This document shows positions 31,863-52,221 of a stretch of 64,000 nucleotides of DNA, piece by piece (position 1 is the first letter of the stretch; every line of letters starts with the position of its first letter). Source of the DNA: Candidatus Thiodictyon syntrophicum. Lineage in GTDB: Bacteria; Pseudomonadota; Gammaproteobacteria; Chromatiales; Chromatiaceae. A program made the position numbers and the translations under genes. The notes below the pieces were generated by a model. It saw only the letters and a program-made list of their open reading frames with translations. It did not search any database and had not been told where the DNA came from. The stretch lies in NCBI RefSeq assembly GCF_002813775.1, contig NZ_CP020370.1:4799501-4863500 (forward strand), in the 5' to 3' direction.

Positions 31863-32474
31863 GTGACCCATGACGGACGCTACCAGGCCAACTTCACCAA
31901 GGGCGGACTCATGGTCCCGGAGAGCCGCCGCGTGGCCGAGCTCCTGCTCGCGGGCGTCGATGCGGCCGGCTGGAAGCAGGCCATCGAAGGGGACAACCTG
32001 CTGCGCAAGCGCTCGCCCACCACGGCATCGACCAAGGCCCTGCTGATCCGCGCCCGGCTGCGGACCATGACTGAGGGTTTATGGCGCCTGGTACGTGACG
32101 GCGACAGGCCGGTAGCGACCCAGGCGCTCTTCGCCGCAACCATCACCTACTCCCCCCTGGTCGGAGACTTTATGGACCTGGTCGTCCGCGACCTCTACCG
32201 GCGCTTCGAGGAACGGCTCAAGGCCCAGCACTGGGACCGCTATGTCGAGGACTGCCACACCCGCGACCCCCGCACACCTGACTGGTCCGCCGGGACCCTG
32301 ACCAGCCTGCGCACCCGCGTCTTCGGCATGCTGACCGAGGCCGGTTACCTGTCCGACGCGCGCACCCGGACCCTGAGGCCCCTGACGGTCGCGCCGACGG
32401 TGGCGGGCTACCTCAGGACCCACGGCCGGGACTATGCCCTGCGCTGCATGGAGGTTGACCCCCGGGCGAGTTGA
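31863..32474 (+). CDS. brxA: BREX-1 protein BrxA (DUF1819)
   Basis: 203 aa from GTG 31863 (VTHDGRYQANFTKGGLMVPE). DUF1819 features: an opening strand then ESRRVAELLLAGVDAAGWKQ, KRSPTTASTKALLIRARL, and FAATITYSPLVGDFMDLVVR with the closing TLRPLTVAPTVAGYL. BrxA is a small DNA-binding BREX component, needed for defence in several hosts. It is the first gene of the island and lies 17 nt from fnr. The GTG start is inferred, since the only nearby ATG (31870) is out of frame. Length agrees with characterised BrxA (about 200 aa). Confidence 0.9.
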   Translation: MTHDGRYQANFTKGGLMVPESRRVAELLLAGVDAAGWKQAIEGDNLLRKRSPTTASTKALLIRARLRTMTEGLWRLVRDGDRPVATQALFAATITYSPLVGDFMDLVVRDLYRRFEERLKAQHWDRYVEDCHTRDPRTPDWSAGTLTSLRTRVFGMLTEAGYLSDARTRTLRPLTVAPTVAGYLRTHGRDYALRCMEVDPRAS

Positions 32475-32485
32475 AGAACAGGAAT

Positions 32486-32602
32486 TGTCCACAGATGAAC
32501 ACAGATGAAGAAACCAGCGAGGCTTCGGCAATCGATGACGAATAATCAACCCTTTAAGAATTCGTTTTTCTTATCTGTGTTCATCTGTGTCATCTGTGGA
32601 CA
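32486..32602. repeat. CCACAGATG hairpin between brxA and brxB
   Basis: TTGTCCACAGATGAACACAG at the left and CTGTGTCATCTGTGGACA at the right, with about 60 bp of interior (GAAGAAACCAGCGAGGCTTC...). The interior resembles that of the four tandem units at 33221-33800. Confidence 0.9.
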
Positions 32603-32617
32603 TCTTGAGGGCGAAGC

Positions 32618-33193
32618 ATGAGCGGCGTCTTCAACCAACGTCTCGACCAGATCCTGGAGCGCGTCACCGCCGACGACTTCCTCCAAGGCAAGGGCCTGGG
32701 CAACGAGATCCCGTTCTACGCCTTCGACTATCCCGCCGAACGGGAGTTGGAGGTGCGCGGGCACCTCGCCTTCCTCCTCACCCAGATCCCCAAGCGTCGG
32801 CCCAGCTTGCGCTTCACGCACATCAACCTGTTCGACCTGATCATCCGCCACCTGAAGGACCGCGGGTTTTATGACAAGGCCCTGGCCCTCCACCAGAAGC
32901 AAGGTGATGCGGCGCTACGCAAGGCGCTCGCCGCACCGCTGGACGCGGGCAAGCTGGCGGCCGTGCTCGCCACCGAGGTCAAGCCCGCGCAACAGGACCT
33001 GGTGCTCGTCTCCGGAGTCGGCGCAGCCTACCCCTTGCTGCGCACCCACAACCTGCTGAACAATCTCCACCACCGCATGGGCAGCACGCCGCTCGTGCTG
33101 TTCTACCCCGGCGACTACGACGGTCAATCCCTGCGGCTGTTCGGCACCTTACAGGACAAACCCTATTACCGCGCCTTCAGGCTCGTGAGCTGA
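32618..33193 (+). CDS. brxB: BREX-1 protein BrxB (DUF1788)
   Basis: 191 aa. DUF1788 pattern: ERVTADDFLQGKGLGNEIPF, YAFDYPAERELEVRGHLAFL, INLFDLIIRHLKDRGF, VLVSGVGAAYPLLRTHNLLN and the ending TPLVLFYPGDYDGQSLRLFG. BrxB is an essential BREX core protein thought to bridge BrxC and PglZ. Complete, with normal length. The repeat-filled gaps on both sides (143 bp and 632 bp) are much larger than in typical BREX operons. Confidence 0.92.
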   Translation: MSGVFNQRLDQILERVTADDFLQGKGLGNEIPFYAFDYPAERELEVRGHLAFLLTQIPKRRPSLRFTHINLFDLIIRHLKDRGFYDKALALHQKQGDAALRKALAAPLDAGKLAAVLATEVKPAQQDLVLVSGVGAAYPLLRTHNLLNNLHHRMGSTPLVLFYPGDYDGQSLRLFGTLQDKPYYRAFRLVS

Positions 33194-33220
33194 TCCACAG
33201 ATTCACCGGATGAAGAATGG

Positions 33221-33800
33221 TCCACAGATGACACAGATTGACACAGATGAAGAAATCAGCGAGGCTGCCGCAGCCGATAACGAATCATCGATCCTCCGAG
33301 ATCATTTCTTTTCTTATCTGTGTTCATCTGTGTCATCTGTGGACAACTCTTCCGATCAGCCGGATGAAGAATATCCATAGATGACACAGATTAACACAGA
33401 TGAGGAAATCAGCGCGGCGGCGGCCGATAACGAATCATCGATCCTCCAAGATCATTCCTTATTATTATCTGTGTTCATCTGTGTCATCTGTGGACAACTC
33501 TTCCGATCAGCCGGATGAAGAATATCCACAGATAACACAGATGAACACAGATGAAGAAATCAGCGAGGCGGCGGCAGTTGATAATGAATCATCGATCCTC
33601 CAAGATCATTCTTTTTCTTATCTGTGTTCATCTGTGTCATCTGTGGACAACTCTTCCGATCAGCCGGATGAAGAATATCCACAGATGACACAGATTAACA
33701 CAGATGAGGAAATCAGCGCGGCGGCGGCCGATAACGAATCATCGATCCTCCAAGATCATTCCTTTTCTTATCTGTGTTCATCTGTGTCATCTGTGGATAA
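33221..33800. repeat. Four tandem ~152-bp palindromic units between brxB and brxC
   Basis: Units begin at 33221, 33374, 33525 and 33678 (spacings 153, 151, 153). Each has a left arm TCCACAGATGACACAGATTR, a ~55-bp middle with GCCGATAACGAATCATCGAT, and a right arm TCATCTGTGTCATCTGTGGA, followed by CAACTCTTCCGATCAGCCGG. The last right arm ends in TGTGGATAA. No gene is supported here; the open frames are readings of the repeat. Confidence 0.95.
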
Positions 33801-33825
33801 CTCTTCCGCCGCAGGAGTGTAGGTC

Positions 33826-36800
33826 ATGTTGATCAAGGATCTGTTCACCAAGCCGATCGACCGCCCCATCAACGGCGTCATCAAGGCCGATCAGGCCGAC
33901 AGTGCGTCGGTCTGGCAGGAGCTCGACGAGTACGTCGTCACCAAGGAACTCGACATCCATTTCCGCCGCTTCTTCGGCGCCTACCTGGATGCGATCGACC
34001 ACGCCGGGGACCCCCAGGTGGTCGGCAAGGTCGGGGTCTGGATCTCCGGGTTCTTCGGCTCCGGCAAGTCCCACTTTCTCAAGATCCTTTCCTACCTCTT
34101 GGAGAACCTTGAGATCAGCCATGCCGGGCAGACCCGGCGTGCCATCGCGTTCTTCGACGGCAAGATCCAGGACGCCATGTTGGCCGCCGACATCAAGCGC
34201 GCCGTCGGCACCGCGGTGGATGTCTGCCTGTTCAACATCGACAGCAAGGCCGACACCGCCAGCGGGCGTGACGCCATCCTGCGGGTCTTCCTGAAGGTGT
34301 TCAACGAGAAGCTCGGGTTTTGCGCCGATCATCCGCACATCGCCGACCTGGAGCGGCACCTCGCGGCGTCGGGCAAGCTCGACGCCTTCAAGGCCGCATT
34401 CCGCACCATTGCCAAGTGCGACTGGGAGCAGGAACGCGACGGCTACAGCTTCTACGCCGACGAACTGGTGCTGGCCCTCTCGCAGGCCCTGGGCAAGACC
34501 CCCGAGGGTGCACGCGCCTGGCTCGAACGCTGCGAGGACGATTTCAAGTCGCTCCTGACCGTCGAGAACTTCGCCGGCTGGATCAAGGCCTACCTGGACA
34601 GTCGGGGCCCCGCGCACCGCATCTGCTTCCTGGCGGACGAGATCGGCCAGTTCATCGGCCAGGACACCCACCTGATGCTCAACCTCCAGACCATCGCCGA
34701 GAACTTGGGCACCGTCTGCGGCGGCCGGGCCTGGGTCGTGGTCACCTCCCAAGAAGACATCGACGCGGTGCTGGGCGAGGTCCGTGCCGCCCGCGCCAAT
34801 GACTTCTCCAAGATCCAGGGTCGTTTCAAGACCCGCCTTTCGCTCTCCAGCGCCAACGTGGATGAGGTCATCCAGAAGCGCCTGCTGGACAAGACCGACG
34901 CCGCCCGCGCGACCCTGGCGGCCCTCTACCGCGACCAGGCCGACATCCTCAAGAACCAGCTCAGCTTCAGCAATGTTGGCATGACCTTCAAGCCCTATGC
35001 TGACGCACTGGATTTCGTCAGCGTCTACCCCTTTGCCCCCTACCAGTTCCAACTGATCCAAAAGGTCTTCGAGGCCATCCGCCGCCACGGGGTCACCGGC
35101 CTGCACCTGGCTCGCGGCGAGCGGTCCATGCTGGACGCCTTCCAGTCCGCCGCGATCCAACTCGCCGCCGAGCCGGTCGGGGTGCTGGTCCCGCTGCACC
35201 GCTTCTACCCGGCCATCGAGAGTTTCCTCGAAGGCGTCGTCAAGTCGACCCTCGACCACGCCGCCGGCAACGACAAGCTCGAACCCTTCGACTCGCAGCT
35301 TCTGCGCACCCTGTTCCTGATCCGTTATGTCGAGGAGATCCGGGGCAACGTCGACAACCTGGTGACCCTGTTCGTCGACCGCATCGACGCCGACCGCCTG
35401 GCCCTGCGCCGACAGATCGAGGCCAGCCTCCAACGCCTGGAGCGCGAGACCCTGATCGGACGCAATGGCGAGGACTTCTTCTTCCTCACCAATGAAGAGC
35501 GCGACATCAGCCGCGAGATCAAGGACGTTGACCTGAGTTCCGCGGAAGAGGCCAAGTTCCTGGGCGAGCTGATCTTCGATGACCTGCTCAAGGGGCTGCG
35601 CAAGCAGCGCTTCCCCGACAACAACAAAGATTTCGGCATCAACCGCCTGTGCGACCTGCACCCGCACGGCACCCGCACCGACGGCGACCTGGTCCTGTCC
35701 CTCGTCACCCCCCTGGCCGACGATTACCCAATGTACGAAGAGGCCCGCTGCATCCTGCAAAGCGCCGCCGAGGGCGGCCAGCTCATCGTTCGGCTCGACG
35801 ACGACAAGACCCTGGGCCGTGAGCTACGCACCTGGTTGCAGACCGACCGGTACATCGGCCGCAAGAATGACGGCACGGCCGCGACCACCACGGTCAAGAT
35901 CCTGCGCGAGCGCCAAGAGGAGAACCGGGAGCGCCGCGCGCGCCTGGTCCTGCAACTGGAGCGCCTCTGCAAGGAGGCCGCCTACTACGCCGCCGGCCAG
36001 CCGGTCCGGCCCAAGGGCGGCACCGCCGCCGCCTCCTTAAGTGATGCCCTGAACTATCTCATCCGCAACAGCTTCAACAAGCTCGGCTACCTCGCGCACC
36101 TGTCCGCCAACCCCCAGGCCGAGATCAAGGCGGTACTCAGCGCCACCGACGTGGACGATCTGGGCTTCTCGCTGGAGGCCGGTCAGGGCAACCAGCAGGC
36201 ACTCGCCGAGGTCGAGGGCCATGTCAACCTCATGGCCGGCGCCAACCGTCAGGTGATCCTGCAAGACCTCGTGGAAGACCGGTTCGGCCGGCGGCCTTAC
36301 GGCTGGCCGGAGTGGGAGGTCGTCCTGCTGGTGGCCCGCCTGGTCCGCAAGGGCGCCATCAGCCTGGTGATGGACGGTGCGACCCTGTCCGCGGACAAGA
36401 TCTTCGAGGCGGTCGTCACCCCCAGCAAATGGCGCCGCATCACGGCCATCAAGCGCCAGACGGTCGATCAGGGCCAACTCCAGGCCGCCCGCCAACTGGC
36501 CAAAGAGGTCTTCGGCCAGATCGCCCCCGATGGTGAGGACGCGCTCGCCGCCTGCCTGCGCGAACACCTGGGCGGTTGGCGCACCAACCTCGGCCAATAC
36601 AAGACCCTGGCCGACACCGACGCCTACCCGGGCCGGCAGGAGATCGCCGATGCCGCGGGTGTCATCGCCAAGCTCCTGGCGGAGACCGAGAGCTTTGGCC
36701 TGATCGGCACCTTCCTGGAGCGCAAGACCGACCTGCTCGACCTGTCCGACAATGTCCATGAGCTGACGAACTTCTACGAGACCCAGCGCCCCACCTGGGA

Positions 36801-37410
36801 GCGGCTGCGCAAGGCCGCCGCCCGCTTCCAGCCCAACCGCACCTGGCTCGACAAAGACCCCAAGGCGGCCGCGGCCCTTGCGCGCATCCAGACCATCCTC
36901 GACGCCGCCGCCCCCTATGGCATGATCAAGGACGCCGAGTCGTTGATTCAGACCGTCGAAGGCATCGACACCGCCCTGGTCGCGGAGCGCCGAGCCCAGG
37001 TCCTGCAAGGCATCGATGCCCAACTCGGCAAGGTCCAGGTGGAGCTCGACGAGGCCAAGGCCGCAACCGATCTGCGCAACCTGTGCCTCCTGCCGCTGCA
37101 AGTCCTCAGACGCCAGGTCGAGACCCAAGCCAGCATTGCCCACCTCGACCAGGCCGGGCAGGCCGCCATCGACGCGGCGGACGAGGCGTTCGCCAAGATC
37201 GAGGCCGCGGCCAGTCAACGGAAAGACCCTGGTACAGTCGGCGAGCAAGACAAGCCGGTCTACGTCAAGCCGCGGCGTGTCGTGAAGGTCGCGGCCCTGG
37301 CACCGGCCGGGTATCTGGAGACCCAGAGCGACGTGGACGGCTACCTGGATCGGCTCCGCAAGGCGCTGGAGAACGCCATCAGCGCGGGGGAGCGCATCGA
37401 GATCCGGTAA
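33826..37410 (+). CDS. brxC: BREX-1 P-loop protein BrxC
   Basis: 1194 aa, the usual size. The N-terminal segment ends in the Walker A motif VWISGFFGSGKSHFLKIL (about residues 71-86). A Walker B-like strand is ICFLADEIGQFIG (about 266-278). A long helical remainder follows, including FAPYQFQLIQKVFEAIRRHG and a C-terminal region rich in Ala/Glu coiled coil. BrxC is the large ATPase of BREX and is required both for host methylation and for phage exclusion. ATG 33826 is preceded by GCAGGAG. There is no frameshift, and the reading frame is clean from end to end. A TA pair and repeats separate it from pglX, normally its direct neighbour. Confidence 0.95.
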   Translation: MLIKDLFTKPIDRPINGVIKADQADSASVWQELDEYVVTKELDIHFRRFFGAYLDAIDHAGDPQVVGKVGVWISGFFGSGKSHFLKILSYLLENLEISHAGQTRRAIAFFDGKIQDAMLAADIKRAVGTAVDVCLFNIDSKADTASGRDAILRVFLKVFNEKLGFCADHPHIADLERHLAASGKLDAFKAAFRTIAKCDWEQERDGYSFYADELVLALSQALGKTPEGARAWLERCEDDFKSLLTVENFAGWIKAYLDSRGPAHRICFLADEIGQFIGQDTHLMLNLQTIAENLGTVCGGRAWVVVTSQEDIDAVLGEVRAARANDFSKIQGRFKTRLSLSSANVDEVIQKRLLDKTDAARATLAALYRDQADILKNQLSFSNVGMTFKPYADALDFVSVYPFAPYQFQLIQKVFEAIRRHGVTGLHLARGERSMLDAFQSAAIQLAAEPVGVLVPLHRFYPAIESFLEGVVKSTLDHAAGNDKLEPFDSQLLRTLFLIRYVEEIRGNVDNLVTLFVDRIDADRLALRRQIEASLQRLERETLIGRNGEDFFFLTNEERDISREIKDVDLSSAEEAKFLGELIFDDLLKGLRKQRFPDNNKDFGINRLCDLHPHGTRTDGDLVLSLVTPLADDYPMYEEARCILQSAAEGGQLIVRLDDDKTLGRELRTWLQTDRYIGRKNDGTAATTTVKILRERQEENRERRARLVLQLERLCKEAAYYAAGQPVRPKGGTAAASLSDALNYLIRNSFNKLGYLAHLSANPQAEIKAVLSATDVDDLGFSLEAGQGNQQALAEVEGHVNLMAGANRQVILQDLVEDRFGRRPYGWPEWEVVLLVARLVRKGAISLVMDGATLSADKIFEAVVTPSKWRRITAIKRQTVDQGQLQAARQLAKEVFGQIAPDGEDALAACLREHLGGWRTNLGQYKTLADTDAYPGRQEIADAAGVIAKLLAETESFGLIGTFLERKTDLLDLSDNVHELTNFYETQRPTWERLRKAAARFQPNRTWLDKDPKAAAALARIQTILDAAAPYGMIKDAESLIQTVEGIDTALVAERRAQVLQGIDAQLGKVQVELDEAKAATDLRNLCLLPLQVLRRQVETQASIAHLDQAGQAAIDAADEAFAKIEAAASQRKDPGTVGEQDKPVYVKPRRVVKVAALAPAGYLETQSDVDGYLDRLRKALENAISAGERIEIR

Positions 37411-37414
37411 TCAA

Positions 37415-37493
37415 TTATCCACAGATGACACAGATGAACACAGATAAGAACGTTTTCTCTTCATCTGTGTTCATCTGTGTCATCTGTGGATAA
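37415..37493. repeat. CCACAGATG hairpin after brxC
   Basis: The short-loop version begins TTATCCACAGATGACACAG (37415) and ends CATCTGTGGATAA (37493); both ends carry a perfect TTATCCACA in inverted orientation. Confidence 0.95.
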
Positions 37494-37598: not shown

Positions 37599-37928
37599 AT
37601 GCAGACCGTCGGCATCAAAGCGCTGCAAACCAACCCAGGCGTCCTCAGCAAGGCGCTCGACAGCGGCGACTACCTGCTGATCACCCGGCACGGCAAACCG
37701 ATCGGGATCGCCGCCGCCTTCGACGACAGCCTGCTCGATCTGGGATTTCGCAAATGGATCGCCGTGCGCTCCTTCCAGGCGGGCGATCTCAGCCTGGGGC
37801 AGGTCGCGCAGGTGTTCGAGAAATCAAAGGAGGAGACCATGCGGCTACTGTCCGAGCTGGGGATAGCCATCGCCGACTACGACTTGGCCGAAGACCTCGA
37901 AACCCTGGAGTTGCTCGGCAGTCATTGA
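37599..37928 (+). CDS. Phd/UPF0175-type antitoxin
   Basis: 109 aa from ATG 37599, with GGAG 8 nt upstream. The N-terminal MQTVGIKALQTNPGVLSKAL, then LLITRHGKPIGIAAAF, is Phd-like; the rest, with LGFRKWIAVRSFQAGDLSLG and QVAQVFEKSKEETMRLLSEL, is UPF0175. It is expected to neutralise the DUF3368 protein encoded immediately after (no gap between stop and ATG). This pair sits inside the BREX island between brxC and pglX, with CCACAGATG hairpins on both sides, and may stabilise the island. Confidence 0.85.
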   Translation: MQTVGIKALQTNPGVLSKALDSGDYLLITRHGKPIGIAAAFDDSLLDLGFRKWIAVRSFQAGDLSLGQVAQVFEKSKEETMRLLSELGIAIADYDLAEDLETLELLGSH

Positions 37929-38441
37929 ATGGACGCCATCGTCAGCGATACGACCGCCCTGATCGTGTTGGCGGGCCGACAGCGCTTGGACCTGCTCGGG
38001 GCCTGTTTCGAGCGCGTCTTGCTGCCGCGGGCGGTTTACCGGGAGTGGTTGGCAGGCGACGCGTCCGTTGAGAACACAGTCGCGCATCTCAGCTTCCTGG
38101 AAGTCGTCGCGGTGGAGGACTTCCCATTGCTCGGTGAACTGCGCACGCTGCTCGACGCGGGCGAGGCGGAGGCCTTGGCGCTCGCCCGAGCGCGAGGACT
38201 GCCGCTGTTGGTGGACGAAAAAAAAGCGCGGACCATCGCACGGATGATGAAGATCCCGATCTTGGGACTGGTCGGCGTCCTGTTACTCGCGGTGGAGCGC
38301 GGTATCCTGGAGCCGCAGGTGGCCAGCGCACTCCTGCAGGAATCGATCGACCATGGATTTCGCTTGTCCGAGCGGCTCCATCAGGTGTTCCTGAGCCGGC
38401 TGGCGTTGTCGGCCGATCCGCAGATGAACAACAAGGCTTGA
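37929..38441 (+). CDS. DUF3368 PIN-fold toxin
   Basis: 170 aa. The first catalytic Asp lies in MDAIVSDTTALIVLAGRQRL, followed by LPRAVYREWLAG, GEAEALALARARGLPLLVDE (two acidic positions) and KKARTIARMMKIPILGLVGV. DUF3368 proteins are PIN-like nucleases paired with UPF0175 antitoxins. The start ATG directly follows the antitoxin stop. Complete. Confidence 0.88.
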   Translation: MDAIVSDTTALIVLAGRQRLDLLGACFERVLLPRAVYREWLAGDASVENTVAHLSFLEVVAVEDFPLLGELRTLLDAGEAEALALARARGLPLLVDEKKARTIARMMKIPILGLVGVLLLAVERGILEPQVASALLQESIDHGFRLSERLHQVFLSRLALSADPQMNNKA

Positions 38442-38496: not shown

Positions 38497-38706
38497 ATGA
38501 GAGAGACAATGGTTGAAACGATGGTGACCTACACGATCGAGTATAACGGCAAGCTGTATGTCATCGACGACGTGCCGGCGCGCGTCTGCCGCGAGACCGG
38601 TGAGGAGTTCTTCGCACCAGAGACCGTTGAGCACATCCAAGCACTGGTGAAGGGAAGCAAACCGCCGGTGCGAATGATACAGACTCCGGTTTTTCAGTAT
38701 GCCTGA
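38497..38706 (+). CDS. YgiT-like small protein lacking the zinc cysteines
   Basis: 69 aa, with a likely start at ATG 38497 or one of the two later ATGs (MVETMVTYTIEYNGKLYVID). It follows the fold of YgiT/MqsA N-terminal proteins: YVIDDVPARVCRETGEEFFA, then TVEHIQALVKG and VRMIQTPVFQYA. However, only one Cys remains of the usual CxxC pairs, so metal binding is doubtful. The cognate toxin gene is not adjacent; position suggests a detached antitoxin. Confidence 0.6.
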   Translation: MRETMVETMVTYTIEYNGKLYVIDDVPARVCRETGEEFFAPETVEHIQALVKGSKPPVRMIQTPVFQYA

Positions 38707-38768
38707 TATCTGCACCATTCTGTGGTTGGCGCACGACGCTCAGTCCCTTTTGCCAACGGCACGGAAGA

Positions 38769-38974
38769 TTATCCACAGATGACACAGATGAACACAGATG
38801 AAGAGAAGAAGGTATTTATCTGTGTCCATCTGTGTCATCTGTGGACAATCATTCTTCCCCCGCCCCCGCAGGTATCATTCATGCCGCAAGAGAAGAATCC
38901 ACAGATGACACAGATGAACACAGATGAAGAGAAGAAGGCATTTATCTGTGTTCATCTGTGTCATCTGTGGATAA
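38769..38974. repeat. Two consecutive CCACAGATG hairpins upstream of pglX
   Basis: The first is 38769-38846 (starts with TTATCCACA, ends CTGTGGACAA). The second is 38898-38974 (ends CTGTGGATAA). Between them lies CATTCTTCCCCCGCCCCCGC, a spacer resembling the interiors of the pglX 120-bp units. Two extra arms, AATCTGTGGACAATCCG, lead into the pglX ATG. The gap contains no gene. Confidence 0.95.
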
Positions 38975-39007
38975 TCCGAATCTGTGGACAATCCGAATCT
39001 GTGGATC

Positions 39008-39934
39008 ATGAATACTAACAAGATCAAGACCTACGCCCCCAAGGCCCGGCGCGACTTCATCGCCGCCGTTACCCGCCGCGCGGGCACCTTCGGCCTCAGC
39101 GCCAAGGGCACCGCGCCCGTACGGGAGGAGGGGCAACTGGTCTTTATCGAGGGGCAGCCCTACCCGCGGTCGGTCGGCACCCAGCGCCAGAAGCTCGCCG
39201 CGCGGGTCACGCAGCACGGCTTCGAGCAGACCATGGAGGCGGCGGCCTACACCTGGTTCAACCGCCTCGTCGCCATCCGCTTCATGGAACTGCACGGGTA
39301 CCTGGACCACAGCTTCCGGGTGCTGAGCCATCCCGCGGGACTGCTCCTGCCGGAGGTCCTGGGGCACGCCGAGCATCTGGACCTGCCCGGTCTGGATCGG
39401 GAGCGGGTCATCGAGCTCAAGATGGACGGTAACCGTGACGAAGAACTCTACCGCGACCTGCTGCTGGCCCAGTGCCGGGCCCTGCACCGGGCCATGCCCT
39501 TTCTGTTCGAGCGCGTGGACGACGAGACCGAACTGCTGCTGCCCGACAACCTGCTTCAGACCGACTCACTGATCCGCGACCTGGTCAGCACCATCCCGGA
39601 CGAGGACTGGCAGGAGGTCGAGATCATCGGCTGGCTCTACCAGTTCTATATCTCCGAGAAGAAGGATCAGGTGATAGGCAAGGTGGTGAAGAGCGAGGAC
39701 ATCCCCGCCGCCACCCAGCTCTTCACCCCCAACTGGATCGTCCAATACCTGGTGCAGAACAGCGTCGGGCGCCTGTGGCTCATGGCCAACCCGGCGTCCA
39801 CGCTCAAAGACCAGTGGCCTTATTACATCGAGCCGGCGGAGCAGACGCCGGAGGTGCAGGCGCAGTTGGATGCGTTGATTGCTGCGAGAATTGCTGAAGA
39901 TGATCCACAGATGAACACAGATGAACACAGATGA
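39008..39934 (+). pseudogene. pglX: pglX, 5' part (BREX-1 adenine methyltransferase, N-terminal domain)
   Basis: 309 codons from ATG 39008 (MNTNKIKTYAPKARRDFIAA). It is the N-terminal part of PglX: FGLSAKGTAPVREEGQLVFI, AYTWFNRLVAIRFMELHGYL, EVEIIGWLYQFYISEKKDQV, ATQLFTPNWIVQYLVQNSVG and WPYYIEPAEQTPEVQAQLDA. It then runs into a CCACAGATG half-repeat that supplies the tail PQMNTDEHR and a TGA, just where the SAM-binding motif should follow. The 3' part continues in another frame at 40054. PglX places N6-methyladenine on host DNA to mark self; without its catalytic half this polypeptide alone cannot. Could be one chain of a split enzyme. Confidence 0.85.
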
Positions 39935-40053
39935 AGACTTCGCCGATTCCCAAGCTCCGCTTGGGAATCCGCTCCGGGAAGCTCCGCTTCCTGAAAGCCC
40001 AGGGCGATATGGATTGCTATTGATGCATTACGTCGATACCAGCGTCCCGCAAG

Positions 40054-44720: not shown

Positions 44721-44725
44721 AGCCC

Positions 44726-45961
44726 ATGAAATCCACTGACAGCGGGACTCGAACGCGCCCCGATGACGGGGAGAGCGTGGCTATCCCCATGCGCTTGACC
44801 GGGCTCAGCGTTGACAACTTCAAGTCGCTGGTCGATTTCAAGCTCGCTTTGGCGGACTTCACCTGTCTGATTGGTTTGAATGGTTCCGGGAAATCGACCG
44901 TCATTCAAGCCGTTGATTTCATCGCCTGCTTGTTCAAAGGGCGGATGTCGCGGTGGCTGGAGCAGCGCCAATGGAGTCCCGCCGACCTGAATTCCAAGCT
45001 GATCCGAAAGAGCAATATCACTGTCACCACCGGATTGCGGCAAGGGGACGAGGTGCTGAACTGGGCGGCAAGATTTAATCGCACGTCGCTGAAATGCACT
45101 CAAGAAGTGGTCAGGACCGACCAGCGCATCATCTTCGCCGTCGATGACGGCAGCTATGCGATTGCGGACGAGCACGGGCAAATGGCCCGGACAAAGATCA
45201 CGTTCGAGTACGAAGGGTCCCTGTTGTCCCAACTCAAGGACGAAATGCTTACTCCCCAACTTCTTGCTCTCAAGCTGTTTTTGCAGAACACTGTAGCACT
45301 GGACGTGCCGGCGCCACAATTCCTCAGAACGAAGACGTCATCGCGCCATGGGGGCCGCGGTTCGGCTGGCGAGTGCCTGCCGGCGTTCCTTCACGAACTT
45401 TCGGCGGCGCAGCGAACGGCGTTGTTGGCGCAACTTCAGGCGTGCTATCCGCGATTGACCCACTTCGTCATCCGTTCACTAGGTGCCGGCGGGAAGGAGT
45501 TGAACATCAGTGAGCAGTTCGGAAACACCCAGCTTTACACCGAGGCCAAACACGTCAACGACGGCATGTTGCGGCTTATGGCAATACTTGCTGAGATTCT
45601 GACGAAACGCGAGTTTGTGCTTTTCGATGAAATCGAGAATGGTATCAACCACGAATTGGTGGAATTTCTGCTCGACACCCTTGTGGGCTCGCGGCAGCAG
45701 GTACTGATAACGACCCACAGCCCGATGATCCTCAATCATCTGGATGATGGTGTGGCGCGCGCGGGTGTCCACTATCTCTATCGAACGCCGGAGGGCTACA
45801 CAAACTCAGTTCCCTTCTTCTCGATACCCTCAGTCTCGGAAAAGCTGGATTTCATGGGGCCGGGGGAGGCATTCGTCGATACCAACTTGACCCGACTGTA
45901 CGAAGAAATCCAGGCGATGCAGGAAAACGAACTGGGGCCGGACAATGCTGATTCTCGTTGA
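44726..45961 (+). CDS. AAA_21-type ATPase (OLD-like/ABC-fold), cargo in BREX island
   Basis: 411 aa from ATG 44726; the frame is open 30 codons more, but through the pglZ-like vestige. Motifs: LTGLSVDNFKSLVDFKLALA at the start; Walker A GLNGSGKST (about 50-58); a late signature-like segment KHVNDGMLRLMAILAEIL; Walker B FVLFDEIENGIN; and the H-loop LITTHSPMILNHL. Proteins like this are common in defence islands, frequently with a nuclease or Toprim-like partner gene. The partner here is broken (45945-46052). Function otherwise unknown. Confidence 0.8.
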   Translation: MKSTDSGTRTRPDDGESVAIPMRLTGLSVDNFKSLVDFKLALADFTCLIGLNGSGKSTVIQAVDFIACLFKGRMSRWLEQRQWSPADLNSKLIRKSNITVTTGLRQGDEVLNWAARFNRTSLKCTQEVVRTDQRIIFAVDDGSYAIADEHGQMARTKITFEYEGSLLSQLKDEMLTPQLLALKLFLQNTVALDVPAPQFLRTKTSSRHGGRGSAGECLPAFLHELSAAQRTALLAQLQACYPRLTHFVIRSLGAGGKELNISEQFGNTQLYTEAKHVNDGMLRLMAILAEILTKREFVLFDEIENGINHELVEFLLDTLVGSRQQVLITTHSPMILNHLDDGVARAGVHYLYRTPEGYTNSVPFFSIPSVSEKLDFMGPGEAFVDTNLTRLYEEIQAMQENELGPDNADSR

Positions 45962-46052
45962 TGCGGTATTCATCTACAAGGTGAGTTTTCTCTTCATCTG
46001 TGAACATCTGTGTGCATCTGTGGATAATCTTTTCCTCACTTTGGGGCATTGA
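45945..46052 (+). pseudogene. Partner of the AAA ATPase, truncated by a repeat
   Basis: ATG 45945 overlaps the ATPase stop. It reads MLILVDAVFIYKV and then becomes the translation of a CCACAGATG half-hairpin (SFLFICEHLCASVDNL), ending after 35 codons. The first 13 residues look like a genuine beta-strand start with an acidic residue (LVDA). The rest of the gene has been lost. Confidence 0.5.
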
Positions 46053-46055: not shown

Positions 46056-46355
46056 ATGCGCCTGACCGAAGCACAGATCGGCTCGATTCGCCGCATCATC
46101 GGCGACGCCGCAGGACCGGCGGCCCAGGTGCGGGTTTTCGGGTCGCGCCTGCACGACGACGCGGCCGGCGGGGATCTTGATCTCTTGATCGAGTTCCCCG
46201 CCGCGGTCGAGCACCCGGCCGCGCTGTCGGCTCGGTTGTCGACGCGCATCTCTCGCTCGCTGTATGGCCGCAGGGTCGATGTGCTGCTCCTGGCTCCGAA
46301 CCTGCGCCGATTACCCATCCACGAGATTGCGCCGCATGAGGGACAGCCGTTATGA
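46056..46355 (+). CDS. MNT-type minimal nucleotidyltransferase (putative antitoxin)
   Basis: 99 aa. The VRVFGSRLHDDAAGGDLDLL segment (about residues 27-46) is the GS...DxD nucleotidyltransferase motif, with metal-binding DLDL; a third acidic position is in RRVDVLLLAP. MNT proteins AMPylate and thereby block HEPN-domain RNase toxins. The following overlapping frame (46352) has only the start of such a partner. Family certain, role inferred. Confidence 0.8.
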   Translation: MRLTEAQIGSIRRIIGDAAGPAAQVRVFGSRLHDDAAGGDLDLLIEFPAAVEHPAALSARLSTRISRSLYGRRVDVLLLAPNLRRLPIHEIAPHEGQPL

Positions 46356-46498
46356 CCTTGCCACCTGCCACCGCCCAGCGTCTGCGATTTCGGACTTATC
46401 CACAGATGTCACAGATGTTCACAGATGAAGAGAAAGAATCTTATCTGTGTTCATCTGTGACATCTGTGGATAACGAATTCCTCCTGATCGACGAATAG
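46352..46498 (+). pseudogene. HEPN-like partner, truncated by a repeat
   Basis: ATG 46352 overlaps the nucleotidyltransferase stop (ATGA). MTLPPATAQRLRFRT is followed by translated hairpin sequence (YPQMSQMFTDEEKE...) and a stop at 46498. Only about 13 original residues remain. The overlap with an MNT gene is the basis for the HEPN guess. Confidence 0.45.
46396..46473. repeat. CCACAGATG hairpin upstream of pglZ
   Basis: TTATCCACAGATGTCACAGAT at 46396 (one T to C variant inside) and TGACATCTGTGGATAA ending 46473. Both ends have perfect TTATCCACA sequences facing each other. Confidence 0.95.
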
Positions 46499-46514: not shown

Positions 46515-49121
46515 ATGGATAGTCAACGTATCGAAAGCGCGCTGAAGGATCAGTTCGTCGCGCAAGGCCATCGCATCGTGTTCTGGAACGACCCGGAGCG
46601 GGAGTTCGAGGAGATCCTGCCTGAACTCGAGCTGGATGATGTGACCCTGTTGCGCCTCGACCAGGTCTGCGGGCTGGAGGTCAAGGTCCGCCTGGAGTTG
46701 ACGGATACCCGGGGCCGCTATCTGCTCTATGCCCCGTGCGAGCCGCCCGAGGTCGAACAGGACTGGCTGCTCGACGTCCGCCTGTACAGCGCGAGCTTCC
46801 GGGCGGACCGCGCCTCAATGATGCTCAATGAACTTGGTTTGACCCAGCAGTCGTTGCGCCTGCACCTGGCGGAGCGGGCGCGGTTCTTCACCAGCCGGGA
46901 CCGGCTGGAGCGGCTGAAGCGGCTCGTGAACCCCACTGACAACGCGCTCGACATCGACCGCAAGATCATCGCGGTGCTCGCCAAGTCCGATCAGCCGGAG
47001 TTCTTCAATGTCCTGATCGCCTTGTTCGATGCCCTCCCGGAGGGCCAGTTCGACGCGCTCCCGCCCGCGTGGGAGGAGATGGGAAAATTCGGCGTCCAGG
47101 CGGCCTTCTGGGACCTGGCCGGGGGCCAGTTCGGTTACCAGGAAGGGGCGCCGACACTCAAGAACCTGCTGATCCGGCTCTTGGTGTCGGATCTCAGTCA
47201 CGCCTGCCGCGGGCCGCTTCCGGAGGGCCTCAAGCCGCTCACGCTGGGGCGCCAGGGGGCCGCCAATGCGGTGGTCTGCCTCGCCCAGTGGCGTGACAGC
47301 AGCACCCGGGGGCCTTCCTATGAACGCCTCTCGGCCGGTGTGGCGGATGCGGTGAAGCTCACGCAACACTTGGGGGCCTTGGAGATCGAGGCCCTGGCCG
47401 AGGTGAAGACCTTCCTGCTGGTCGAGCAGGTCATCGCCAGTCGTTTGCGCGACCGGGTGCTGGAGACCGCGCAGAGCATCAAGCCCCAGGCCGTCCGGGC
47501 CATCGCCGCGCACCGGCAGGACGGTTACTGGGCGTCGCGGGCGCTACCGGACACCCCCCATGCGCCACGCCGCTCACTGTACGCGGTCTACGAGGCCCTG
47601 CAGACCGCCGCGGACCTGTTCGACCTGCGCAACGCGCACCTCGGCGGTTTGGCGCAACCGAACGCGCAGGCGCTGCTGACCGCCTACACGGGGGGCCTGT
47701 ATCGCTTCGATCAGCTCTATCGCCAGTTCTGCGAGGCCGCGGATTACGCGGAGTCCCACGACTGGGATATCCTCAAGTCCTTGCGCAAGGAGGTCGAGCA
47801 GGTCTATGGCGCGGGCTTCGTGGCGGAGTTGGCGCTGGAGTGGAACAAGCATCTGGGGACGGGTCTGCTCGGGTCCTGGCGGATCGACGGGCTACCCAAT
47901 CAGCAGACATTCTTTGACCGGGAAGTCGGGCGTGTGCTGGCAAAAGGGACCGACCGCCGGGTCTTCGTGATCATCAGCGACGCCCTGCGCTTCGAGATCG
48001 CGCAGGAACTGAACGGCCTGCTCAACGGCAAGTACCGCTTCGACGCGAACCTGTCCGCCCAGCTTGGCGTGCTGCCGTCCTACACGGGACTCGGTATGGC
48101 CGCCTTACTGCCCCATCAGGCGCTCGACTATGACGAGGGCGGCACCGTGCGGGTCGATGGCCTGCCGTGCGGTTCGCTGGAGCAGCGGGGTCGAGTGCTG
48201 GAAGCGGTGCAGGGCGTGGCGGTCCGGGCCGAGGTCTTCATGGCCATGAAGAAGGACGAGGGGCGCGCCTTCGTCAAGCCGTACCGGGTGGTCTATGTCT
48301 ATCACGACCAGGTGGACGCGGTCGGCGACAAGGCATCGACCGAGGGGCAGACCTTCGGCGCGGTGCGCAAGGCGATCAATGAACTGTGCGATCTGGTGAG
48401 CAAGATCATCAACAGTCTCAATGGCAATCACCTGGTCATCACCGCCGATCATGGCTTCCTGTTCCAGGAAACACCGCCTGGTGAGACCGACAAGAACACC
48501 CTGGCCAGCAAGCCCGCCAGCACCCTCCTGGCCAAGAAGCGCTATCTTCTGGGTCGAAACCTGCCTGCCAGTGACCAAGCCTGGCACGGCACCACCGCGG
48601 TCACCGCCGGGGCCGGCGGCGGCATGGAATTCTGGGTGCCGAAGGGCGCCAACCGCTTCCACTTCGTCGGCGGCTCGCGGTTCGTGCATGGCGGGGCCAT
48701 GCCGCAGGAGGTCGTGGTGCCGATCATCCGCGTGCACCACATCAAGGAGACGGGCAGCGCGGCCAAGACGCGGACGCGCACCGTCGGCGTGAGCGTCCTC
48801 GGCAGCAACTTCAAGGTCACGACCAACCGCTGTCGCTTCCAGTTGATCCAGACCGAGCCGGTCGGCGAGCGGGTCAAGCCGGTCACGCTGAAGGTGGCGA
48901 TCTACGACGGCGCGGACCCAGTCACCAATGTCGAGACCCTGACCTTCGACAGCCCCTCGACCGACATGAACCAGTGGAAGAAGACGGTGAGCCTGACCCT
49001 GGAGGGGCGGCGTTTCGACAGCAAGAAGGTCTTCCAGTTGATCCTGCGCGACACCGAGACCGGGGTGGAAGAGGCGCGCTTCGACGTGACGATCGACCTG
49101 GCCTTCATTAACGACTTCTGA
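46515..49121 (+). CDS. pglZ: BREX-1 phosphatase-like protein PglZ (type A)
   Basis: 868 aa, normal for PglZ type A. N-terminal: VAQGHRIVFWNDPEREFEEI. Alkaline-phosphatase-fold metal motifs: RVFVIISDALRFEIAQEL (about residues 481-498) and HLVITADHGFLFQ (about 639-651). Between them are LGVLPSYTGLGMAALLPH and VYHDQVDAVGDKASTEGQTF. C-terminal: GGAMPQEVVVPIIRVHHIKE and a beta-rich tail. PglZ is an essential core protein of BREX. Positions 47035-47093 (EGQFDALPPAWEEMGKFG) are duplicated before the AAA gene. Reading frame intact. Confidence 0.95.
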   Translation: MDSQRIESALKDQFVAQGHRIVFWNDPEREFEEILPELELDDVTLLRLDQVCGLEVKVRLELTDTRGRYLLYAPCEPPEVEQDWLLDVRLYSASFRADRASMMLNELGLTQQSLRLHLAERARFFTSRDRLERLKRLVNPTDNALDIDRKIIAVLAKSDQPEFFNVLIALFDALPEGQFDALPPAWEEMGKFGVQAAFWDLAGGQFGYQEGAPTLKNLLIRLLVSDLSHACRGPLPEGLKPLTLGRQGAANAVVCLAQWRDSSTRGPSYERLSAGVADAVKLTQHLGALEIEALAEVKTFLLVEQVIASRLRDRVLETAQSIKPQAVRAIAAHRQDGYWASRALPDTPHAPRRSLYAVYEALQTAADLFDLRNAHLGGLAQPNAQALLTAYTGGLYRFDQLYRQFCEAADYAESHDWDILKSLRKEVEQVYGAGFVAELALEWNKHLGTGLLGSWRIDGLPNQQTFFDREVGRVLAKGTDRRVFVIISDALRFEIAQELNGLLNGKYRFDANLSAQLGVLPSYTGLGMAALLPHQALDYDEGGTVRVDGLPCGSLEQRGRVLEAVQGVAVRAEVFMAMKKDEGRAFVKPYRVVYVYHDQVDAVGDKASTEGQTFGAVRKAINELCDLVSKIINSLNGNHLVITADHGFLFQETPPGETDKNTLASKPASTLLAKKRYLLGRNLPASDQAWHGTTAVTAGAGGGMEFWVPKGANRFHFVGGSRFVHGGAMPQEVVVPIIRVHHIKETGSAAKTRTRTVGVSVLGSNFKVTTNRCRFQLIQTEPVGERVKPVTLKVAIYDGADPVTNVETLTFDSPSTDMNQWKKTVSLTLEGRRFDSKKVFQLILRDTETGVEEARFDVTIDLAFINDF

Positions 49122-49152
49122 TCCACAGAGGGTAACGATGGAAGGAAGAATT

Positions 49153-49464
49153 TTGTCCACAGATGAACACAGATAAGAGGGCTTGCCAGGCTCCGGCCAG
49201 TATCCGCCGGGTATTCCGGTAGACAAGTTTTTCAAAGATGACACAGATGAACTCAGATATTTCTCTTCATCTGTGAACATCTGTGTCATCTGTGGATAAT
49301 GATCTTCACTTACGAATCGTCGGCGACAAGAAAGAGATTGTCCACAGATGACACAGATGGACACAGATGAAGAGACGGGCGCTGCATTTATCTGTGTTCA
49401 TCTGTGTCCATCTGTGGATAAATTCTTCGTCTTTCTTTGCCTGAACCCGGAACCTCTGTGGATA
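49153..49464. repeat. Three CCACAGATG arms/hairpins and the left 140-bp direct repeat
   Basis: A single left arm at 49153-49180, a hairpin at about 49238-49299, and a hairpin at 49338-49421. The last is part of a 140-bp segment (49325-49464, starting GACAAGAAAGAGATTGTCC and ending CTCTGTGGATA) that recurs at 49881-50020. Confidence 0.92.
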
Positions 49465-49499
49465 ATCATTCTTCTTTACCCCATTTGGAGAGAATATCA

Positions 49500-49871
49500 G
49501 TGGATAGAGAAACGGACCCGCAGACCTTTGCGATTATTGGTGCGGCGATGGCTGTTCATTCGGAGTTGGGGCATGGCTTCCTGGAACGGGTTTATCATGA
49601 GGCTTTGACCTTGGAGCTTCGGCGAAGAGATATTCCGTTTCAGACGGAATGTCCGATCCCGATTTTTTATAAAGGCGAAAAGCTGTCTGTGGTCTACCGC
49701 GTTGACTTGGTATGTTTCGAGGCAGTGCTCGTCGAAATCAAGGCACTGTCCGCAATCAGCGGCGGGGAGAAAGCCCAGTTGCTCAACTATCTGAAAGCGT
49801 CAAGACTCAAACGCGGCCTCATCCTCAACTTCGGCGCGGCCAGACTCCAATACGAGCGCTTGATATTCTGA
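49500..49871 (+). CDS. GxxExxY-type protein
   Basis: 123 aa from GTG 49500, with TTGGAGAG upstream. The family name motif is visible as GHGFLERVYHEAL (about residues 26-38). LSVVYRVDLVCFEAVLVEIK follows, with the D...E-x-K of a PD-(D/E)XK-like nuclease fold, then GEKAQLLNYLKASRLKRGLI, LNFGA. Such proteins occur widely in defence islands and near CRISPR or RM loci, with unknown function. The gene is bracketed by 140-bp direct repeats, as a removable cassette would be. Confidence 0.85.
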   Translation: MDRETDPQTFAIIGAAMAVHSELGHGFLERVYHEALTLELRRRDIPFQTECPIPIFYKGEKLSVVYRVDLVCFEAVLVEIKALSAISGGEKAQLLNYLKASRLKRGLILNFGAARLQYERLIF

Positions 49872-49880
49872 TCCGCAGAT

Positions 49881-50154
49881 GACAAGAAAGAGATTGTCCA
49901 CAGATGACACAGATGAACACAGATGAAGAGACGCGCACTGAATTTATCTGTGTTTATCTGTGTCCATCTGTGGATAAATTCTTCGTCTTTCTTTGCCTGA
50001 ACCCGGAACCTCTGTGGATACCGTCGATCTTGACGGCGTGGTGGCGTCATCATGCGTCCATCGATGATAAGAAGGAATCGGTCCACAGATGACACAGATG
50101 AACACAGATGAAGAGAAGAATTTATCTGTGTTCATCTGTGTCATCTGTGGATAA
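49881..50154. repeat. Right 140-bp direct repeat and two CCACAGATG hairpins before brxL
   Basis: 49881-50020 repeats 49325-49464 with few changes and includes a hairpin (about 49895-49977). A second hairpin spans about 50080-50154. The 325 bp between the GxxExxY gene and brxL contain nothing else. Confidence 0.92.
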
Positions 50155-50196
50155 ACTCTTAATCTTCATTCGCCTGACTGTACAGCTTCTGTGGAT

Positions 50197-52221
50197 ATGA
50201 ATGACTTAGATGGCTTGTTGAACCGGCATTTTGCCGGCAAGGTCGTGCGCAAGGATCTCACCAAGCTGATCAAGGAGGGGGCGAACGTCCCTGTCTACGT
50301 GCTGGAGTACCTGCTCGGCATGTACTGCGCGTCGGACGACGAGGCGATCATCCGCGATGGCATGGAGACGGTGAAGACGATCCTGGCCGAGAACTATGTG
50401 CGGCCGGATGAGGCGGAGAAGGTCAAGTCCAAGATCAAGGAGCGGGGCAGCTACAAGGTCATCGACAAGGTAACGGTGCGGCTCAACGAGCGCCGCGACC
50501 TCTACGAGGCCCTGCTGTCGAACCTGGGGGTCAAGGATGCCGTGATCCCGGGAAGTTACGTGAAGCAGTTCGAGAAGCTGCTGGTGGGCGGGATCTGGTG
50601 CATCGTCACGGTTCAATATTTCTTTGAAGAGGGACAGAAGGGTTCGCCCTTCACCATCGGCGACCTCAAACCGATCCAGATGCCCAACATGGACCTGGCG
50701 GGGCTGTTCGAGGGACGCCTGGCGTTCTCCGAGGCCCAGTGGATCGATGTCCTGTGCCGTTCCACCGGGATGGAACCGGCGAATCTGACCGAGCGGGTCA
50801 AGTGGCACCTGCTGGCGCGGATGGTCCCCTTCGTCGAGAACAACTACAACTGCTGCGAGCTGGGACCGCGGGGGACCGGCAAGAGCCACATCTACAAGGA
50901 GATCAGCCCCAACAGCATCCTCATCTCGGGCGGCCAGACCACGGTGGCCAACCTGTTTTACAACATGGCGCGCCGTCTCGTGGGGCTGGTGGGCCTGTGG
51001 GATGTGGTGGCCTTCGACGAGGTGGCGGGCATCTCCTTCAAGGACAAGGACGGCGTGCAGATCATGAAGGACTTCATGGCCTCGGGGTCCTTCGCCCGCG
51101 GGCGCGATGCCATCCAGGCCTCGGCGAGCATGGTGTTCGTGGGCAACCTCAACCAGCCGGTGGACACCCTGGTGAAGACCAGCCACCTGCTGGCGCCATT
51201 CCCGGAGTCGATGATCGACTCCGCCTTCTTCGACCGTTTCCATGCCTACATCCCCGGCTGGGAAGTCCCGAAGATGCGCCCGGAGTTTTTCACCAATCAG
51301 TACGGGCTGATCACCGACTACCTGGCCGAGTTCATGCGTGAGATGCGCAAGCGCAACTTTTCCGATGCCATCGACCGGTATTTCAAGCTCGGCAACAACC
51401 TGAATCAGCGCGACACCATCGCCGTGCGGCGCACCGTCTCGGGCCTGCTCAAGCTGCTCTATCCCCACGGGGCCTACGACAAGGAGGCGGTGCGCCGCTG
51501 CCTGGAGTACGCGCTGGAGGCGCGCCGCCGGGTGAAGGAGCAGCTCAAGAAGATCGGCGGCATGGAGTTCTTCGATGTGCACTTCTCCTACATCGACCAG
51601 GAGACGCGCGACGAGCGATTCGTCAGCGTACCGGAGCAAGGGGGCGACAAGCTGATTCCGGATGGCCCGCTCAATCCGGGCGTGCTGCATACCGTGGCTA
51701 CCGGCGCCAGCGGTCATCTGGGTCTCTACCGACTGGAGACCCAGACCACGGCCGGCAACGGCCGGTTCAATGTGTCCGGCCTGGGATCGAACAGCGGGGC
51801 CAAGGAGGCGGTGAAGGTCGCGTTCGACTACTTCAAGGCGAATCTCAGCCGGGTCAGTGGACTGGCAAGGGCCGGCGATCACGACTATCACCTGCATGTC
51901 GTCGAGTTGCACAACACGGGGGCCACCAGGGCGATGACTTTGCCGAGCTTCGTCGCCTTGTGCTCGGGGATCATGCAGAAGCCGCTGCAAGGGCAACTGG
52001 TCGTCCTCGGCGACATGAGCCTGGGCGGGAGCTTGATCCCCGTGGAGAACCTGGCCGAGTGCCTGCAAGTCGCCTTCGACTCCGGCGCCAAGCGGCTCCT
52101 GTTGCCGATGGCGAGCGTACGCGACATCGCGACCATCCCCGGCGAGCTGTTCGCCAAGTTTCAGACCTCGTTCTACGCGGACCCGGTGGATGCGGCGTTC
52201 AAGGCGTTGGGGGTGGAGTAG
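50197..52221 (+). CDS. brxL: BREX Lon-protease-like protein BrxL
   Basis: 674 aa. Start chosen at ATG 50197 (MNDLDGLLNRHFAGKVVRKD); the GTG two codons earlier belongs to the repeat arm CTGTGGATA. Walker A is ELGPRGTGKSHIYKEI (about 222-229), Walker B WDVVAFDEVAGISF and sensor-like MVFVGNLNQPVDTL. The C-terminal Lon-like domain includes LQGQLVVLGDMSLGGSLIPV and SGAKRLLLPMAS, with the Lys of the catalytic dyad type. BrxL is the DNA-binding AAA+ effector of type 1 BREX. It ends the island; dnaQ follows on the other strand after 21 bp. Confidence 0.95.
   Translation: MNDLDGLLNRHFAGKVVRKDLTKLIKEGANVPVYVLEYLLGMYCASDDEAIIRDGMETVKTILAENYVRPDEAEKVKSKIKERGSYKVIDKVTVRLNERRDLYEALLSNLGVKDAVIPGSYVKQFEKLLVGGIWCIVTVQYFFEEGQKGSPFTIGDLKPIQMPNMDLAGLFEGRLAFSEAQWIDVLCRSTGMEPANLTERVKWHLLARMVPFVENNYNCCELGPRGTGKSHIYKEISPNSILISGGQTTVANLFYNMARRLVGLVGLWDVVAFDEVAGISFKDKDGVQIMKDFMASGSFARGRDAIQASASMVFVGNLNQPVDTLVKTSHLLAPFPESMIDSAFFDRFHAYIPGWEVPKMRPEFFTNQYGLITDYLAEFMREMRKRNFSDAIDRYFKLGNNLNQRDTIAVRRTVSGLLKLLYPHGAYDKEAVRRCLEYALEARRRVKEQLKKIGGMEFFDVHFSYIDQETRDERFVSVPEQGGDKLIPDGPLNPGVLHTVATGASGHLGLYRLETQTTAGNGRFNVSGLGSNSGAKEAVKVAFDYFKANLSRVSGLARAGDHDYHLHVVELHNTGATRAMTLPSFVALCSGIMQKPLQGQLVVLGDMSLGGSLIPVENLAECLQVAFDSGAKRLLLPMASVRDIATIPGELFAKFQTSFYADPVDAAFKALGVE

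Follow-up and report, generated by a model that had tools for sequence, protein, structure and literature searches.

What are the palindromic repeats that crowd the type 1 bacteriophage exclusion (BREX) operon of Candidatus Thiodictyon syntrophicum, and how did they come to lie between and within its genes? The operon occupies 31.9–52.2 kb of the window, by which we mean the whole 64,000-nucleotide stretch that was analysed, taken from a three-contig genome of 7.74 Mb. A sequence-only reading of this DNA had proposed that the repeats serve the island as landing or recombination sites for gathering defence modules. We arrive at another reading, which is a better account than an acquisition scaffold: on balance, the palindromes probably represent the ends of a small element that carries a GxxExxY gene, together with solo derivatives of it that lack the gene; a parallel family would carry an S23 gene, and both would colonise type 1 BREX loci.

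The genes brxA, brxB, brxC, pglX, pglZ and brxL are present in the standard order and are all matched by PADLOC, which gives the type 1 BREX gene set; pglX, however, is not intact as had been assumed but falls into two open reading frames (ORFs) in different frames. The palindromes are built from a short unit, approximately CACAGATGA, that recurs every 9–10 bp in inverted arrays. The window contains 43 copies of the 9-mer CCACAGATG where 0.55 would be expected; none of 100 shuffled sequences reaches 43, and 37 of the 43 copies lie between 32 and 50.3 kb. Within the operon there are 40 multi-unit arms of CACAGATG type, which make up 19 complete palindromes and two half-copies. They start 3′ of brxA and stop 5′ of brxL, the nearest further exact CCACAGATG being more than 4 kb off on both sides. 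Nine of the 12 gene junctions are occupied (AAA/MNT by a half-copy only), among them all five core-gene junctions, and no palindrome was found at the antitoxin/PIN, PIN/YgiT and Rpn/AAA junctions, so that the description of repeats at most junctions holds. To it we add five copies of 120 bp that lie within pglX and, at the brxB/brxC junction, four of 153 bp.

Does the operon merely share in a repeat family of the whole genome? The 9-mer CCACAGATG has 172 copies genome-wide; 40 samples of 20 kb, spread evenly over contig C1, contain 0.425 on average and never more than 4. The 27-bp arm CCACAGATGACACAGATGAACACAGAT (9-then-10 spacing, at most two mismatches) has 32 copies in the genome, and all 32 are in this operon. 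The dispersed CCACAGATG copies are a different subfamily, with a spacing of about 130 bp (for example at 15119, 27362 and 56931), and we rejected the idea that genome-wide repeats stand here by chance. The BREX operon has six inverted-array groups (merged), and samples of its own genome have a mean of 1.05 and a maximum of 3. Among the matches listed there is no second BREX-like cluster, the four other CCACAGATG sites (L091–L094; L numbers denote loci and G numbers genomes) holding one to few copies; a search with one repeat stretch gave no plasmid match, and no known RNA family matches the window at the gathering threshold. Over 70 nt, the copy between brxA and brxB shares 80–83% similarity with two of the four brxB/brxC copies and 61% with the other two (ungapped register). 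The YgiT/pglX stretch likewise resembles four stretches within pglX (Table 1). This likeness of whole elements, together with the private arm, supports local copying.

The landing-site proposal can be judged from the cargo. The window holds the antitoxin/PIN pair, YgiT, Rpn, AAA, MNT (PF01909 below the cut-off) and GxxExxY that had been read from it, but the HEPN partner of MNT is missing: only the first codons of the gene 3′ of MNT are left before the palindrome at 46396. Three close relatives (PglZ 91–93%) are available, L009, L010 and L011 in genomes G001, G002 and G003. In G003 the gene 3′ of MNT has 159 amino acids, no palindrome there, and a weak, below-cut-off match to PF08780, a nucleotidyltransferase-substrate-binding protein. 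The premise that known BREX operons are compact fails for most relatives seen: several have additional genes or sequence at these junctions, although L012 and L019 are indeed compact. The expected variation of cargo among close relatives was borne out: G003 has AAA, MNT and GxxExxY and lacks Rpn, and G002 has Rpn, only relics of AAA/MNT, and S23 in place of GxxExxY. Such variation would suit landing sites, as would the toxin–antitoxin/YgiT block of the window, which is flanked by palindromes, the near-identical 140-nt repeats (96% alike) on either side of GxxExxY, and the palindrome at which the gene 3′ of MNT stops. However, Rpn of G002 follows pglX after a 23-bp gap with no palindrome between, the Rpn/AAA junction has no repeat, and other loci hold the same modules at the same junctions without repeats there: YgiT at brxC/pglX in G108 and MNT at pglX/pglZ in G072, both loci without CCACAGAT repeats, and AAA relatives at pglX/pglZ in Planctomycetota L018 and L027, where a palindrome was not found at that junction. 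At the AAA/MNT junction the window has a half-copy, and G003 an array. Because relatives hold these modules at the same junctions without repeats, the repeats are not needed for Rpn, AAA, MNT or YgiT, whose borders often lie outside them; for these modules this is the outcome by which the sequence-only reading said it would be refuted. In close relatives cargo and repeats have been gained and lost at least partly separately. What stands of the proposal, in changed form, is the pglZ/brxL junction, where borders and repeats do coincide. There GxxExxY and S23 each have their own class of unit, so that the repeats seem to be ends belonging to the cargo itself, not landing sites that were already there. 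We judge the landing-site explanation improbable.

What, then, sets the pglZ/brxL junction apart? In the window and in G003 it holds GxxExxY between CACAGATG inverted arrays, and the sequence of G001 stops inside the junction, in a CACAGATG arm. In G084, G101, G108 and G002 the resident is S23 (PF05635 match), again between inverted arrays, whose units are TAGTGGA/TAGTGGT and, in G108, AAGTTGGG/AAGTTAAG. G072 and G079 have neither resident gene nor arrays. Arrays are found at six of six Chromatiaceae junctions with a resident gene and at neither of the two complete junctions without one (G001 is cut off). Solo arrays that match the S23 element recur elsewhere in three of the four S23-bearing BREX operons, in frame in PglX. 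Of the 12 genome copies of AAGAAGTTAAGAAGTTAAG in G108, eight are in the BREX locus, and for TAGTGGWTAGTGGWTAGTGG the shares are 9 of 12 in G084, 11 of 22 in G101 and 11 of 32 in G002 (positions converted by hand). The remaining three G084 copies are on a contig (L262, G084:C23:1-6000) with a second, partial pglZ beside a PIN toxin/MazE-type antitoxin-like pair and a TAGTGGT array, which looks like a relic of another BREX locus. By the test used, no inverted arrays were detected in 20-kb samples of G108 (ten), G079 (ten) or other genomes (eight); the BREX stretch of G108 has three groups. Among 27 more distant PglZ-relative stretches, arrays occur in L015, L016 and L027; a single match in L168 is GC-rich and was not counted.

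Is the link between arrays and these two genes peculiar to BREX? S23 (PF05635) and GxxExxY (PF13366) are widespread small proteins that, to our knowledge, have no assigned function. Their genes were sampled in 38 relatives (26 of 26 S23 and 30 of 34 GxxExxY matches fetched) and in 299 Pseudomonadota genomes (30 loci per family out of longer lists, one S23 locus being already in the first sample). The gene was taken as the locus centre, and 14 truncated loci (4, 2, 4 and 4), of which L214 had arrays, were excluded. S23 genes stand between inverted arrays in 14 of 22 loci from the relatives and 13 of 27 from the Pseudomonadota, 27 of 49 in all; for GxxExxY the count is 13 of 26 in each sample. 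Random places gave 11/1000, 1/1000 and 4/1000. (These figures replace those of a first test, 11/26 and 18/30 against 12/1000, in which the gene was assumed to be central in truncated loci too.) With a 200-bp span, 25 of 49 S23 and 25 of 52 GxxExxY loci are positive at the gene, and the same loci shifted by 1.1 kb give 0/96 and 0/100 (0/196 in total, six shifted places being untestable). The modal unit spacing separates the families: it is 7 or 14 in 26 of 27 S23 loci, with 6 in the other, and 8, 9, 10 or 18 in all 26 GxxExxY loci (18 in one). A scan of 20 S23 loci gave no match to any Rfam family and revealed no 23S rRNA context.

A second dispersed family in the genome is also connected with GxxExxY. 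There are 139 copies of its 22-mer CGCAAATGAACGCAAATGAACG (at most one mismatch) in the genome of the window and 112 in G038, two genomes with a GxxExxY gene between CGCAAATGAA arms; G082, G121, G119, G120 and G122 have 6, 1, 0, 0 and 0 copies. The window itself contains an inverted CGCAAATGAA array of this family at 13935–14079, and in its genome CGCAAATGAA arms also flank the other GxxExxY gene (L126).

How do the arrays sit inside core genes? At a linker site of PglX there are five in-frame copies in the window, four in G002 and one in G003, and no array in G072, G079 or G101; Planctomycetota L016 has an independent in-frame array of CACGGAA type at the linker. Near residue 955 of the PglX C-terminal ORF in-frame arrays occur in G084, G108, G002 and L027, and G108 has another at the point that matches the split of pglX in the window. 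In PglZ, in-frame arrays lie near residue 180 in L015 and L016. (A pglZ-like fragment of about residues 155–193, between Rpn and AAA at 44652–44714 of the window and 2720–2836 of L010, spans this PglZ site.) The reading frame is kept in all the PglX and PglZ insertions translated, with the exception of the half-copy at the window's pglX split. In G108 the pglX frame is open throughout and runs through an intact S23 gene near the linker site (L046, 16559–16903), which is in a different frame, a case of overlapping coding with heptamer arrays on both sides. These observations suggest that insertions are tolerated under selection for intact PglX, the split pglX of the window then being the exception.

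Such variable arrays might be a hypermutable switch, with phase variation of pglX through unit or copy number. The break falls in a run of three 10-bp units, and the number of copies at the linker differs among the window, G002 and G003, as a switch would have it. However, each lineage is represented by one genome, the interruption includes other sequence and hence is not a simple slip, and the other translated insertions are in frame. We regard a switch as very improbable.

Alternatively, the hairpins could be selected as controls of BREX mRNA, RNase III cleavage, stabilisation or attenuation setting the dose of each protein. The five palindromes that were folded as RNA are all very stable (−50 to −57.5 kcal/mol, z −10 to −14), all core-gene junctions of the window are occupied, relatives have several unit sequences at the same junctions, and RNase III cuts the hairpins of the 23S rRNA intervening sequence (IVS) (PMC4990558, in the part consulted). 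Against this, G072, G079, L012 and L019 have no arrays by the test used, copies inside pglX and pglZ lie where cleavage would destroy the message, and the copy number at one site varies between 1, 4 and 5. This explanation seems to us quite unlikely.

A third alternative is that ordinary repeats, similar to miniature inverted-repeat transposable elements or to repetitive extragenic palindromes (REPs), have accumulated in a large dispensable operon, with GxxExxY and S23 as hitch-hikers. Several more families of dispersed palindromes occur in the genome, insertions into defence loci should be tolerable, and the pglX of the window is broken. However, such repeats would not be expected to give three array groups in the G108 BREX locus and none in ten 20-kb samples, an arm private to one operon in 32 of 32 copies, a strong link to both genes that is specific in unit length, or the preservation of the frame wherever PglX and PglZ insertions of other loci were translated. 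We consider this unlikely, if less so than control of the mRNA.

We return to the small elements, a reading that starts from what is observed: the arrays, their privacy, the family-specific unit length, the association with two genes, the repeated occupation of sites and the open frames. The GxxExxY gene between pglZ and brxL would be the gene-bearing copy and the palindromes its solo derivatives. Copies would have multiplied chiefly inside the operon, probably through recombination or through replication copying between hairpin-forming repeats, which would yield a repeat family private to this locus, and would survive where they are harmless, at gene junctions and a few tolerant sites of PglX. 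The parallel family, mostly of 7-bp units, with its gene for S23 (a four-helix, Avd-related protein), would use the same junction and shared PglX sites in the BREX loci of relatives. By analogy with REP doublets forming hairpins (REPINs) and the REP-associated tyrosine transposases (RAYTs), the GxxExxY protein, of the PD-(D/E)XK fold, or the S23 protein probably helps to cut or copy its own arms. We infer such protein-driven movement or cutting from where the genes lie, from the match of unit length to gene family, from the nuclease fold that Pfam assigns and from the relation of PF05635 to Avd. PF05635 is described as akin to the Avd protein of diversity-generating retroelements (PMC10053308, in the part consulted), and sub-threshold bAvd matches are present in three of the four BREX S23 proteins. 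For GxxExxY a solved PDB relative was not found by sequence. At least two open-access papers name GxxExxY and at least one more PF13366; of these, PMC8934634 mentions GxxExxY solely beside a reverse transcriptase of the CRISPR (clustered regularly interspaced short palindromic repeats) type.

Several points weigh against this reading. Mobility, the role of the proteins and the direction of spread are our deductions; no transposition, excision or cleavage was seen, and a clean target duplication was not noticed at the few filled/empty pairs compared by eye. In roughly half of the S23 and GxxExxY loci no arrays could be detected. Several S23 loci from one genus share one unit, so that the S23 cases are not independent, and three BREX copies are among the sampled loci. 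G110 has 48 copies of CGCAAATGAACGCAAATGAACG, yet none of its four GxxExxY genes has CGCAAATGAA arms, and shared descent could explain the CGCAAATGAACGCAAATGAACG counts because all eight genomes belong to one genus. The arrays of L015, L016 and L027 come without a GxxExxY or S23 gene in the partial loci examined. G002 combines CACAGATG solos with an S23 element, and in G108 the array at the site of the N/C split differs from the unit of its pglZ/brxL element. Finally, the two arrays nearest to the S23 gene inside the G108 pglX share one orientation, the inverted partner lying about 0.3 kb upstream, beyond a stretch of pglX. We dropped this gene as a complete inverted element for that reason; the standing of the overall reading is unchanged, because it rests elsewhere.

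Each of the known systems shares a part of this picture. REPs and REPINs with their RAYT combine a single copy that carries a gene, flanked by palindromes, with copies of that sequence that lack the gene, and a cognate gene-bearing copy with gene-less copies is what we find here. However, the gene is S23 or GxxExxY and not a Y1/HUH RAYT (RAYT genes elsewhere were not searched for), and the arms are tandem short units of family-specific length. Rickettsia palindromic elements are inserted in frame in coding genes, and the insertions described here likewise keep the frame of the host gene except at the split site of the window, a likeness of behaviour; the hosts are different, and our repeats are tied to one operon and include gene-bearing copies. 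The IVS of 23S rRNA is a small element with terminal inverted repeats, an S23 gene and a stable stem (PMC4990558, same part). The S23 family, and it alone, resembles it in placing an S23 gene between inverted repeats (27 of 49 loci) but differs in lying outside rRNA (0 of 20 Rfam matches), in arms that are short-unit arrays and in its abundant gene-less copies, and GxxExxY forms a second family. TAACTGA heptamers, tandem 7-bp units of sulfur bacteria and cyanobacteria, are reported from Beggiatoaceae mostly upstream of genes, with one inverted case (PMC4679880, in part); unlike our arrays they are direct repeats, and the words BREX and S23 are absent from the main text of that paper. Type 1 BREX loci with accessory nuclease and HEPN/MNT genes are described in passages of PMC12839542, and the present operon similarly contains accessory nuclease and MNT-type genes. 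The terms GxxExxY and four-helix are absent from the main text of PMC12839542, and those passages do not describe palindromic arrays. Unlike an intact type 1 BREX locus, the window has a split pglX frame; that of G108 is open. In the open-access literature, among the titles and abstract beginnings listed, none was found with arrays in BREX or with short-unit inverted arrays tied to GxxExxY or S23; subscription journals lie outside this scope.

Table 1. Genes and repeats of the BREX operon (window coordinates)
Feature	Position	Strand	Remarks
brxA	31911..32474	+	PADLOC BrxA 1.2e-61
Palindromic array, brxA/brxB	32487..32601		Junction without array in G003, G084, G079
brxB	32618..33193	+	PADLOC BrxB 4.2e-68
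brxB/brxC: four tandem 153-bp copies, each palindromic	33206..33808		Two palindromes in G003
brxC	33826..37410	+	PADLOC BrxC
Palindrome, brxC/antitoxin	37415..37493		RNA hairpin −57.5 kcal/mol, z −13.8
UPF0175 antitoxin-like	37599..37928	+	PhdYefM match below cut-off
PIN-type toxin-like (DUF3368)	37929..38441	+	
YgiT-type zinc finger protein	38497..38706	+	TIGR03831 36.6 bits, cut-off 20.2
Two palindromes, YgiT/pglX	38767..38976		Four pglX-internal stretches 86–88% similar over 120 nt
pglX N-terminal ORF	38984..39934	+	PADLOC PglX model positions 1–305
pglX interruption	39905..40053		Half-palindrome (three 10-bp units); by eye, second palindromic repeat and PIN-like gene start
pglX C-terminal ORF, methyltransferase motifs onward	40054..43446	+	PADLOC PglX; Eco57I/MmeI MTase domains
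In-frame 120-bp palindromic copies in pglX (n = 5)	42252..42843	+	
Palindrome, pglX/Rpn	43434..43519		Provides pglX stop codon; absent in G002 despite Rpn
Rpn family	43556..44632	+	PF04754
AAA ATPase	44636..45961	+	PADLOC PDC-M25A; first codons overlap pglZ-like fragment
Half-palindrome, AAA/MNT	45993..46028		
MNT nucleotidyltransferase	46056..46355	+	PF01909 19.4 bits, below cut-off 21; 90% match in G003
Remnant of gene 3′ of MNT (presumed HEPN), cut by palindrome	46352..46395	+	G003 gene longer
Palindrome, MNT/pglZ	46396..46473		Also in G002
pglZ	46515..49121	+	PADLOC PglZ 5.2e-291
Two palindromes, pglZ/GxxExxY	49155..49420		
Left 140-nt repeat beside GxxExxY	49325..49464		96% identity to right copy
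GxxExxY protein (PDDEXK_3)	49497..49871	+	TIGR04256; D...ExK residues by eye
Right 140-nt repeat, palindrome inside	49881..50020		
Palindrome, GxxExxY/brxL	50081..50160		Hairpin −56.9 kcal/mol
brxL	50191..52221	+	PADLOC BrxL

Other repeats were seen in passing. The window has three copies of a dispersed element (15119–15257, 27362–27500 and 56931–57069), about 150 bp long and bounded by CCACAGATGAACACAGAT, of a subfamily other than the BREX-private one, and upstream of the operon, at 30471–30865, a glycine-rich-looking repeat region of 12–21-bp units. Several further dispersed palindrome families are present in the genome, among them a common GTCGTT hexamer family of inverted arrays (L050, L051, L057, L080 and others); a TCGTTG array flanks one S23 gene in G110 (L119). 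The two samples densest in inverted repeats (30 and 18 per 20 kb) consist for the most part of identical palindromes at regular spacing, which we read as CRISPR arrays; repeats of this kind at L060 75–4248 and L076 16526–19238 are probably two such arrays.

What would the finding mean for these protein families and for BREX? Tentatively, since we give it rather less than an even chance, we suggest that S23 and GxxExxY are the partners of two unrecognised REPIN-like classes, inverted arrays of 7-bp and of 8–10-bp units respectively, in which the unit length would be fixed by the protein and the unit sequence would change fast, and which would home to type 1 BREX or be retained there, in frame in PglX. 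The link between protein family and unit length gives S23 and GxxExxY a testable role, and it ties S23 genes outside rRNA to a long-standing question, how the intervening sequences of 23S rRNA move. For BREX itself, the arrays are a source of in-frame variation in its methyltransferase.

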